A stretch of 64,000 nt of DNA from Microbacterium sp. Clip185 (GTDB taxonomy: Bacteria; Actinomycetota; Actinomycetes; Actinomycetales; Microbacteriaceae), in contig NZ_CP117996.1 in NCBI RefSeq assembly GCF_028743715.1, positions 2,728,001 through 2,792,000 on the forward strand. Direction: 5' to 3'. The number at the start of each line of letters is the position of its first letter. Position 1 is the stretch's first letter. Both the position numbers and the translations under genes were made by a program. The notes beneath the pieces are model-generated. The model was not told the DNA's origin, did no database searches, and saw only the letters and a program-made list of their open reading frames with translations. Of this stretch, positions 8,759 to 24,041 are shown in pieces.

Positions 8759-9067
8759 ATGAGTGCGTTCCTCCCCGGCGCCCGCGGCACGCAGCCCTGC
8801 CCGGACTGCGGCGCCCAGGTCGCGCAGTCCGACCGATACCCCGAGTATCTCTGCGACGAATGCGAATCGCGCGCTGTGGATGCGGACGGCGCCCGCGTCA
8901 CCGGATCGAACGCGTCCTTCGGCGGCGGGTTCGTGCTGCACTGGCCGGACGGCGAGCACGAGTCCCTTCCCTGCGCCTCGGCGCGGGTGTGGGTCGACGG
9001 ACGCGAGTGGGAGTACTCCGAGGCGCGTTTCGGCGGGGTGCTGATCACGCCCGTCCACGACCGCTAA
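8759..9067 (+). CDS. Small zinc-ribbon hypothetical protein
   Basis: A 102-residue protein with two CxxC knuckles in its first 40 residues (CPDC and CDEC), consistent with a zinc ribbon. A beta-rich tail follows with conserved-looking tryptophans (LHWPDG, VWVDGREWEYSEARFGG). TACACT ends six bases before the ATG, supporting leaderless initiation here. No function can be assigned. It is followed by the first 171-bp repeat copy. Confidence 0.72.
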   Translation: MSAFLPGARGTQPCPDCGAQVAQSDRYPEYLCDECESRAVDADGARVTGSNASFGGGFVLHWPDGEHESLPCASARVWVDGREWEYSEARFGGVLITPVHDR

Positions 9068-9078
9068 CCCGACCGTCG

Positions 9079-9262
9079 GCTATGCGTCAGCAAAGAATCA
9101 CGAAAAGGTAACGGGAACCTCTTCCCCTCCGTTATCTCACCGTTATAGAGTGCTCGCACGGTAGTTGTTTTGCTGTGGCAGCTACCGACATGTGATTGCA
9201 GGACACTCTTGGTGCAAAGGGACAAGGGCCGGTCGGAAGCCTCTCCGACCGGCCCTTACTGC
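9079..9262 (+). ncRNA. 171-bp structured repeat, copy 1: putative small RNA with promoter and terminator
   Basis: Bases 9092-9262 are identical to 16778-16948, and the similarity extends with three mismatches back to 9079. Internal order on the plus strand: an arm GGTAACGG (9107-9114); two CCGTTAT repeats 11 bp apart (9129-9135 and 9140-9146); a -10-like TAGAGT (9146-9151); hairpin CGGTAGTTG/CAGCTACCG (9159-9187); hairpin TTGCA/TGCAA (9196-9217); and a perfect 14-bp terminator-like stem AAGGGCCGGTCGGA/TCCGACCGGCCCTT (9224-9257). This suggests an RNA of about 100 nt ending at the stem. The orientation is inferred. The last stem also stands just beyond the stop of the convergent hsp20 gene and could terminate that transcript too. 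Confidence 0.6.
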
Positions 9263-9275
9263 CGTTCGCGGTGCG

Positions 9276-9713
9276 TCAGTTCTGCGACTCCGAGACCTGC
9301 AGCGCGGGGGCGTCGTCACCCGTGGTGATCTCGACCTTGCGCGGCTTGGCCTTCTCGCTGACGGGGATCGTGACGCTCAGCACGCCGTTGCGGTAGCTCG
9401 CCGAGATCTTCTCGGTGTCGAGCCCCTGCCCGAGGCTCAGCTGACGCAGGAAGGTGCCCGAGGTCCGCTCGCGCGTGATCCAGGTGACCCCGTCGCCGGC
9501 CGAGAGCGTGCGCTCGGCACGGATGGTCAGCAGCTGACCGTCGATGTCGACATCGACCGAGCCCGGGTCGATGCCTGGCAGGTCGGCGGTGAGGACGTAG
9601 TGGTCGCCGTCGCGGTAGAGGTCCATCGGCATCTGCCGGGGGCCGCGCCGTGCGGTGTCGAAGAACGTGTTCGCCATGCGCTCCAGGTCACGGAGCGAGT
9701 CGTATGCAGCCAT
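9276..9713 (-). CDS. Hsp20-family small heat shock protein
   Basis: A 145-residue alpha-crystallin-type chaperone. A short N-terminal arm (DSLRDLERMANTFFD) precedes the alpha-crystallin domain, with PMDLYRDGDHYVLTADLPG and the family signature YRNGVLSVTIPV near residue 110. It holds unfolding proteins during heat stress. Upstream lie a CIRCE element (9796-9822) and a HAIR-like repeat (9766-9786), so control by HrcA and possibly HspR is expected. The gene converges on the structured repeat at 9079-9262. Confidence 0.95.
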   Translation of the reverse strand: MAAYDSLRDLERMANTFFDTARRGPRQMPMDLYRDGDHYVLTADLPGIDPGSVDVDIDGQLLTIRAERTLSAGDGVTWITRERTSGTFLRQLSLGQGLDTEKISASYRNGVLSVTIPVSEKAKPRKVEITTGDDAPALQVSESQN

Positions 9714-9765
9714 AGTCGTCTCCTCTCGAGCGGGATCGGATGCGGATCCGACCCGTAGTCCCTAA

Positions 9766-16764: not shown

Positions 16765-16948
16765 GCTATGCATGAGAAAAGAATCACGAAAAGGTAACGG
16801 GAACCTCTTCCCCTCCGTTATCTCACCGTTATAGAGTGCTCGCACGGTAGTTGTTTTGCTGTGGCAGCTACCGACATGTGATTGCAGGACACTCTTGGTG
16901 CAAAGGGACAAGGGCCGGTCGGAAGCCTCTCCGACCGGCCCTTACTGC
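16765..16948 (+). ncRNA. 171-bp structured repeat, copy 2: putative small RNA
   Basis: Bases 16778-16948 are identical to copy 1 (9092-9262), without a single indel or mismatch, and 16765-16777 matches with three changes. The same elements are present: two CCGTTAT repeats (16815-16821 and 16826-16832), hairpin 1 (16845-16873), hairpin 2 (16882-16903) and the terminator-like stem (16910-16943). As in copy 1, a minus-strand gene converges on the 3' end. Here the TetR gene ends inside the repeat, using repeat bases for its stop codon. Confidence 0.6.
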
Positions 16949-17556
16949 GTCGCGGCGACGCGGGCGAAGCCGCCCGCGAGCACCGCGATGACCGCTTCGA
17001 CCTGAGCATCATCCCGCGTCGTGAGCCACCACTCCGCGAGCCCGTCCGCTGCCGCGTGGATCGCCGAGACCACCACCTGCGGCGACGCCAGGCTGACGCT
17101 TCGCTGCGCGCACCAGAGCTCGAGCCGCTCCGCGATCATCCGCCGGTACGCCTCGGACTCCGCGCGAGCCGCATCCACCAGGGCATCGGACGCCCGGGCG
17201 AGAGCGGTCAGTTCAGCCAGGCGCTCGTACCTGCGCGGGTCGGAGCGCACCTCCGCCAGGAACGAGCCCAGCGCCGCAGCCACCGCCACCTCGAGCGTGT
17301 CGACCGGCAACGGATCCGCCCACACACGAGCCGCGAGACGCTCCGACTCCCGCTGGAGCAATGCGGCCACGAGAGACGCCTTCGACCCGAAGGCGTAGTT
17401 GACCACGCGATGGGCGACACCGGCGCGCTGCGCGACCGAGCGCAGCGAGAGAGCGGCTGCCCCCTCCGCGACCATGACCTCGACGGCAGCATCCAGGAGC
17501 TGCTGCCTGCGCTCGGTCACACCCAGGTAGGGCCGCGACTGCGGTTCATCCTTCAC
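16942..17556 (-). CDS. TetR-family transcriptional regulator
   Basis: A 204-residue regulator. The N-terminal helix-turn-helix (TERRQQLLDAAVEVMVAEG, then LSLRSVAQRAGVAHRVVNYAFGSK) spans about residues 14-62, followed by a helical ligand domain. The GTG at 17556 follows GAGGAT. The TAA stop (16944-16942) and the last Gln codon lie within the 171-bp repeat. It is divergent from the GNAT gene; the CCAATTGG palindrome near 17615 in the shared upstream region is a possible operator. Confidence 0.88.
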   Translation of the reverse strand: MKDEPQSRPYLGVTERRQQLLDAAVEVMVAEGAAALSLRSVAQRAGVAHRVVNYAFGSKASLVAALLQRESERLAARVWADPLPVDTLEVAVAAALGSFLAEVRSDPRRYERLAELTALARASDALVDAARAESEAYRRMIAERLELWCAQRSVSLASPQVVVSAIHAAADGLAEWWLTTRDDAQVEAVIAVLAGGFARVAATQ

Positions 17557-23599: not shown

Positions 23600-23606
23600 A
23601 TCGGGC

Positions 23607-24041
23607 ATGAGCGACCGCCGTCTGGCCATCGATGCCTGGGAGAGCCTGTTCCGGGCCCAGCACGAGATCTTCGCGGAGGTGGGTGCGGACTTCGAGCAGA
23701 GCGGCCTGCAGCAGGGCGAGTACGACGTGCTCCTGACGGTCACGCGCGCGCCCGACATGTCAGCGCGGTTGCGGGATGTGACCCGCAACATGCTCATCAG
23801 CCAGCCCAGCGTCTCGCGCCTGGTCGACCGGATGGTCGCGCGCGGGCTGCTCTCCAAGTGCACGGACCCCGACGACGGCCGCGGCGCCATCGTCCGCGCC
23901 ACCGACACGGGGGCACGTCTGTTCCGCTCGATCGCGGCGGTGCACAGCCGTTCGATCGCCGAGCACATGTCGAGTCTCGACGACGACGAGCTGCGCACCC
24001 TGCTGGAGCTCACGCAGAAGCTCCGGCCACGTCGGGACTGA
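23607..24041 (+). CDS. MarR-family transcriptional regulator
   Basis: A 144-residue winged-helix regulator (DYVLL-type core YDVLLTVTRAPDMSARLRDV, recognition helix SQPSVSRLVDRMVARGLL, and wing DPDDGRGAIVRATDTG). The ATG at 23607 is supported by TACGCT ending seven bases upstream. It could regulate itself and the divergent DUF2207 gene through the shared promoter. It converges with sdaA, with 8 bp between them. Confidence 0.9.
   Translation: MSDRRLAIDAWESLFRAQHEIFAEVGADFEQSGLQQGEYDVLLTVTRAPDMSARLRDVTRNMLISQPSVSRLVDRMVARGLLSKCTDPDDGRGAIVRATDTGARLFRSIAAVHSRSIAEHMSSLDDDELRTLLELTQKLRPRRD

Follow-up and report, generated by a model that had tools for sequence, protein, structure and literature searches.

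Trans-acting small RNAs controlled by regulators of the OmpR family are known from systems such as OmpR/MicF/OmrA and PhoP/Mcr7. The element described here, a perfect 171-bp duplication in Microbacterium sp. Clip185, lies in a window of 64,000 bp (the whole stretch of DNA that was analysed, G000:C1:2728001-2792000). Like these RNAs, it appears to be a stand-alone gene with an OmpR/PhoB-type promoter repeat, a length of about 100 nt, a 5' hairpin, an exposed conserved strand and a 3' hairpin. It differs from them in having no Rfam match, a long and nearly invariant strand and a 3' stem without a T-run, and it is known here from sequence alone. 6C RNA (RF01066) is also an actinobacterial small RNA with two hairpins; the element, however, lacks C-rich loops, and a 6C search of the genome, itself a weak test, gave no match. 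ANTAR target RNAs carry two hexaloop hairpins. Ms1 and 6S RNA resemble the element as conserved actinobacterial small RNAs encoded outside coding genes. One of the shortest 6S RNAs measures about 160 nt, as compared to about 100 nt here. Ms1 is also longer and, in the available part of its description, lies next to genes for a HAD hydrolase and an oxidoreductase (PMC9130861), whereas the neighbours found here encode an orphan regulator (termed X), Upp, a MarR-like protein and a photolyase; length and neighbours are the features that set Ms1 apart. We class the element as a candidate new family within a familiar group, that of regulatory small RNAs in bacteria, with Ms1 distinguished by description only.

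Structure and distribution of the candidate RNA

A sequence search with the 171-bp query shows that positions 9092-9262 and 16778-16948 are 100% identical, as the sequence-only reading of this DNA had stated and as direct reading also confirms. Likeness extends beyond the 171 bp to position 9079, at 98% over 184 bp. The single-contig genome of 3.3 Mb contains two copies, because the remaining own-genome matches are to the 3' palindrome on the opposite strand. Copy 1 is flanked by an open reading frame (ORF) that ends at 9067 and by a convergent hsp20 ORF (9276-9713, minus strand). A convergent tetR ORF (16942-17556, minus strand) follows copy 2, whose last 7 bases run into its stop codon and so overlap it. 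The sequence resembles a gene for an RNA of about 100 nt. Comparison with relatives shows selection in Microbacteriaceae on a predicted 5' hairpin, on some 30 nt of exposed strand and on a strong 3' hairpin, with an OmpR-type repeat at a nearly fixed distance upstream (Table 1).

Table 1. Coordinates of the element, the candidate RNA and associated features; plain numbers are positions in the window.
Feature	Position	Strand	Basis or remark
Element copies on the genome	G000:C1:2737092-2737262 and G000:C1:2744778-2744948		both 100% identical to the query
Candidate small RNA, copy 1	9157..9257	+	about 100 nt, predicted ends; match to covariance model R1 at 9153-9259 (the window was in the model); covariation
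Candidate small RNA, copy 2	16843..16943	+	predicted ends; R1 match at 16839-16945; same sequence as copy 1
5' hairpin CGGTAGTTG/CAGCTACCG, loop UUUGCUGUGG nearly invariant, copy 1	9159..9187	+	8 of 12 pairs changed on both sides
Nearly invariant exposed strand GUGAUUGC..CUCUUGGUGCAAAGGG, copy 1	9192..9221	+	invariant columns in 41 sequences
3' terminator-like stem-loop, copy 1	9224..9257	+	12 of 13 pairs changed on both sides; no T-run
11-bp direct repeat GTTATCTCACCGTTAT, OmpR/PhoB-type box, copy 1	9131..9146	+	GTTAY-N6-GTTA before 75 of 77 elements
11-bp direct repeat box, copy 2	16817..16832	+	same as copy 1
Likely -10 hexamer TAGAGT, copy 1	9146..9151	+	putative; TAnnnT by eye in a 42-element alignment; start expected at about 9157-9159
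Orphan regulator X	G000:C1:2719602-2720318 (L288:3603-4319)		about 17 kb before copy 1, outside the window
MarR-family ORF, frequent neighbour of the RNA in relatives	23604..24041	+	Pfam MarR_2, E 7e-13
Other GTTAYN6GTTAY copies	L259:1501-1516, L260:1501-1516, L263:1501-1516		

The structure was examined in two alignments. Alignment A1 has 41 members: besides the window, it takes in 40 loci, hand-picked from the matches listed, that represent 33 genera. Across the 5' hairpin and 3' stem, 94.7% of its cells are paired. Changes on both sides of a pair occur at 20 of 25 pairs and in 124 cells, as compared to 11.3 and 33.3 in shuffled alignments, and none of 500 shuffles scored as high. Sliding the partners gave at most 10 pairs and 26 cells. 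Alignment A2 consists of 78 matches from 73 of 285 loci, with rows fitted to the model. One of its rows is false (L223, on the minus strand and antisense to the stem); this row is kept in counts over 78 rows and excluded from counts over 77 elements. The covariation of helices 1 and 3 is seen again in A2.

Two nearly invariant parts of the molecule are single-stranded in this structure. The loop of the 5' hairpin retains TTTGCTGTG in 69 of 78 rows of A2. Between the hairpins lies the strand GUGAUUGC-N8-CUUGGUG, about 30 nt of which are nearly invariant across the 41 sequences of A1. In A2, GTGATTGC occurs in 75 and CTTGGTG in 73 of the 78 rows, and the spacer is 8 in 66 of the 71 rows that contain both. 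The sequence-only reading had proposed three hairpins, two of which, CGGTAGTTG/CAGCTACCG and the 3' stem, covary. The third, TTGCA/TGCAA, is invariant throughout A1 and has no double change in A2, so that it lacks covariation support; it is also absent from the minimum-energy folds. By eye, divergent members have lost this helix (L250, L255) or keep it with wobble pairs (L252, L253). The TTGCA/TGCAA hairpin is possible but unsupported. A pseudoknot between loop 1 (UUUGC) and GCAAG was also considered among the divergent members by eye and was rejected, as it is broken in L251. Folding of four members gave z-scores of -4.69, -5.51, -4.03 and -1.58.

The 171-bp query matches 288 of 295 genomes of the genus, or 269 of 272 when genomes of good quality are counted, many of them in two places. 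Across the family it matches 187 of 249 genomes, covering 65 of the 85 genera examined. R1 was run on 34 chosen genomes, comprising 26 BLAST negatives and 8 weaker BLAST positives; the negatives exclude G038 (44% complete), one of seven in the genus, and 42 of the 62 in the family. The model finds the RNA in 4 of the 26 genomes that BLAST had missed and in 7 of the 8 weaker positives. Three genomes that are at least 96% complete (G167, G169, G207) have no RNA by either BLAST or R1, and several family absences are genomes of less than 2 Mb. At the level of the order, where so many genomes entailed stricter filters and weak matches were lost, 23 of 297 genomes match, and 22 of these are Microbacteriaceae. 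The single match outside the family (G733) was rejected because the core is absent on reading. The exact 22-nt core occurs in at least 119 stretches from named genomes; among the matches listed, 114 are from Microbacteriaceae (25 named genera), 4 have no rank and 1 is from a record named Corynebacterium-like. This last record, 'Corynebacterium-like bacterium B27' (L223), bears a canonical copy and is probably a misnamed Microbacteriaceae genome.

A search of the whole window against Rfam 15 returned no family at the gathering score for the element, and only a tRNA elsewhere. For the element alone the best model was PtaRNA1, at 24.6 bits versus the required 47 (E 0.007), and seven related loci matched no family up to E 0.5. 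The 6S model (RF00013) has no match in the genome and scores over its cut-off in 4 of 14 control genomes. The 6C model also has no match in the genome. Because none of the 14 controls passed its cut-off, with Corynebacterium glutamicum alone giving a signal below it, the 6C search is a weak test. Among the open-access papers that literature searches listed, no title or displayed abstract describes this RNA, and none is a study of a regulatory small RNA in Microbacteriaceae; a Curtobacterium genome announcement mentions small RNAs in its abstract. The sequence-only reading had suggested a new small RNA family, to be checked in related genomes, in Rfam and by covariation. The wide occurrence in the family, the lack of an Rfam family at gathering score and the strong compensatory change in the 5' hairpin and 3' stem all support that suggestion.

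The promoter box and its candidate regulators

GTTAY-N6-GTTA precedes nearly all of the 77 elements, and the two exceptions are one base off. When spacers of 2-13 were tried, only 6 occurred, which defines an 11-bp direct repeat; shuffled upstream regions gave a mean of 0.05 of 77 elements with the motif. The distance from the box to the model start is 19-24 nt in 73 of 77 elements and 31 nt in 2 of 77. An additional pair, RTAAC-N6-RTAAC, is found in 30 of the 77. The sequence-only reading had noted promoter-like boxes. By eye, a likely -10 hexamer is present; a scan of 9000-9350 found 0 sigma-70 consensus sites and no consensus -35. The position of the box and the varying neighbours point to a promoter of the RNA's own, outside protein genes.

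In the whole genome, GTTAYN6GTTAY occurs five times, two of them at the RNAs, and the backward control pattern occurs once. The three other exact copies lie before genes that, named by eye, are clgR-like in one case and ABC-transporter binding-protein-like in the other two; one of the latter boxes is shared with a divergent purS-like gene, also by eye. These genes may possibly form a small regulon with the RNA. Such direct repeats are typical of OmpR-type regulators, and the box is of the kind to be expected for a regulator of the OmpR/PhoB type.

One candidate regulator is X, an orphan regulator with an OmpR-type C-terminal domain (Trans_reg_C, PF00486, 1.1e-23) and an N-terminal part that matches nothing in Pfam. 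X was found in 241 of 249 family genomes. Among the matches listed, the RNA was placed in 147 genomes (that of Clip185 excluded) and X in 150; both were placed in 126 and on one contig in 118. In 115 of these 118, X shares the strand of the RNA and lies 0.4 to 36 kb upstream of it; in 3 it is inverted. Within about 4.5 kb on each side of the 40 loci, 18 have X upstream and in the same orientation, 16 have upp, 24 a MarR-like gene and 17 a photolyase-like gene; these counts come from a motif search in heuristically called ORFs, in which at least one X (L066) escaped the X motif. A search of 12 kb around X itself found no box.

The other candidate is MtrA, of which the genome encodes one above the curated cut-off (387.1 bits versus 300). 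In the available parts of the sources, the MtrA consensus is GtnAcC-n5-GTnAcn in Streptomyces and (A/G)TAACAATttn(A/G)TAACAAT in C. glutamicum, and MtrA activates when bound upstream of -35 and represses near -10 (PMC5650626, PMC13189361, PMC3353115). By eye, GTTATC-N5-GTTATA of the window meets the capitals of the Streptomyces consensus as given there, with T at the lower-case c in both halves. Control by MtrA rather than by the neighbouring X is thus a plausible alternative for this one step, to which we give slightly less than even weight, and it is compatible with the mode of action proposed below. It is opposed by the linkage of X to the RNA and by the genes that follow the other exact boxes, which are not the cell-wall genes that would be expected as MtrA targets. 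The box extends up to the likely -10, so that a bound regulator could repress just as well as activate.

Mode of action and rival explanations

The RNA probably controls other genes, because a switch of its own has been kept along with an exposed strand that hardly changes. With moderate confidence, we favor a new regulated small RNA that has its own promoter, is present in two copies and acts through the invariant strand, probably on mRNAs. Transcription would be turned on or off by MtrA or by the linked orphan X, both candidates of the OmpR/PhoB type, and the RNA of about 100 nt would work in trans via GUGAUUGC-N8-CUUGGUG. The strand would most likely pair with mRNAs near ribosome-binding sites, where its CUCUU part can match purine-rich Shine-Dalgarno (SD) sequences. 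Selection and gene conversion would hold both copies alike, and the presence of two copies would probably raise the dose. Two points speak for pairing with mRNAs: the structure supported by covariation leaves the invariant part single-stranded, and CUCUU fits SD-like purine runs.

Several observations weigh against this assignment. The RNA is a prediction from sequence. Searches for a pairing partner in rRNA, in the neighbourhoods of the RNA and in 88 start regions gave nothing convincing. The longest pairing to rRNA is 12, as compared to 11-15 in 12 shuffles. In 41 masked neighbourhood sequences (421,739 bases), k-mers complementary to the core are fewer than for shuffled cores, at 109 8-mers versus a mean of 213, 15 9-mers versus 81 and 1 10-mer versus 17. 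A duplex scan ranked the 88 start regions, and the fourth best belongs to a binding-protein-like gene near X (L288:741-2072, minus strand) and pairs over the SD sequence. The shuffled-core test was run on this region and not on the three better ones; 0.004 of shuffled cores equal it, which is not convincing among 88. The RNA also seems dispensable, because some near-complete genomes of the genus and family lack it, and one of the four folded members, that with a z-score of -1.58, folds no better than many of its shuffles. The terminator-like stem noted in the sequence-only reading exists and covaries, but there is no T-run at the 3' stem in the Clip185 genome, and a rough count puts the longest T-run of the 3' flank at only 1-3 in 37 of 42 elements. 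A terminator scan of 9000-9350 gave two sites, both on the minus strand and neither of them the 3' stem, which must therefore lack a T-run of the type that the scan detects. Poor T-runs are frequent in actinobacteria, and a T-run is no strict requirement for a small RNA. X, finally, is also present in families f6 and f7, and weakly in f9 and f14, in 77 of 297 order genomes in all. Twenty loci around X in two of the other families contain no RNA (best E 0.36) and one GTTAY-N6-GTTA. As X occurs in other families without the RNA nearby, its linkage to the RNA may be plain gene order.

The main rival is that the RNA binds a protein, such as RNA polymerase, the ribosome or an RNA-binding regulator, in the manner of 6S, Ms1 or CsrB, with the invariant strand and the loop as the binding site. 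It owes this rank to the length of the invariant strand and to a spacing that is almost fixed. The usual pairing seed is shorter than 30 nt and is thus exceeded by the 30 nt or so that hardly vary in 41 sequences; the spacing of 8 between GTGATTGC and CTTGGTG and the lack of an mRNA or rRNA partner in the regions searched point the same way. The element is, however, without the repeated GGA-type loops of CsrB, and we regard protein binding as rather unlikely, though it deserves serious consideration. A cis-acting element, that is, a leader, attenuator or shared terminator of the adjacent genes, is much less probable. Its 3' stem could terminate the convergent hsp20 and tetR transcripts, but different genes, both of them convergent, follow the two copies, and between loci the neighbours change while the promoter box and RNA stay constant.

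Two further explanations are highly improbable. Perfect copies with mostly unrelated flanks could reflect the recent insertion of a transposon end, a cassette or another mobile repeat. Against this, the genome has two copies only, the copies in a near species (G284) have the same hsp20 and tetR neighbours, and the helices carry compensatory changes. In addition, there is no match in 50,697 phage and 72,556 plasmid records, and the exact core is absent from viral contigs. The transposon end that the sequence-only reading had named among the findings that would overturn it is accordingly very unlikely. The element could instead encode a small protein, since the frame 9165-9758 crosses it and three frames are free of stops in 22, 21 and 10 of the 41 rows. 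Even the best frame, however, is open in just 22 of 41, and a closed 15-codon ORF lies within the RNA in 13 of 41, which is weak evidence alone. Indels of 1-2 nt in the core of relatives and the variation of helix 1 by pairs also speak against a protein.

If the element is a regulated small RNA, a fuller history can be sketched, which we offer as a tentative and, taken as a whole, unlikely scenario. The RNA would have arisen at the base of the Microbacteriaceae beside an older orphan X and come under an OmpR-type box, and it would act by its bipartite strand on a conserved partner. clgR and sugar transporters would belong to the same regulon, and the gene would have doubled in Microbacterium and been kept uniform by gene conversion. 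Microbacteriaceae include plant pathogens as well as common soil and water bacteria. With the RNA in 65 of 85 genera, and with a box, a candidate regulator and an invariant strand that can all be read from the DNA, the family offers a ready test case for small-RNA control in this branch of the actinobacteria.

Paired copies and variant forms

The two copies were aligned from 15 genomes, including that of the window. In the nearest cluster, of five species, the window, G135 and G244 each have a base in both copies that is missing from the other four species. In G284, both copies share the window's hsp20 and tetR neighbours; for the other cluster species the comparison was limited to short flanks, in which the second copy of G135 had no clear match. 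Bases that are private to a species and common to both of its copies suggest gene conversion, with separate duplications retaining some possibility as an alternative. The sequence-only reading had attributed the identity to recent duplication, gene conversion or strong selection; the identity of the copies fits the latter two acting together. In other species the copies have diverged, with as many as 32 differences, a count that takes in some 14 flanking columns. Some genomes have tandem copies about 200 bp apart, each with a box and stem (L276-L279).

Variant forms of the strand were also seen. A shortened type of the RNA with CUC-UGGUGCAGG in the otherwise invariant strand is present at L280, L283, L011, L012 and L015, in genomes of the same genus as Clip185, and one or both copies may be of the shortened type with CUCUGGUG (L280, L283). 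In genus g50 (L125, L256), the GUGAUUGCAGGACACUC half, by eye, is apparently swapped for a small hairpin that differs between the two, while CUUGGUGCAAGG and the promoter box are retained.
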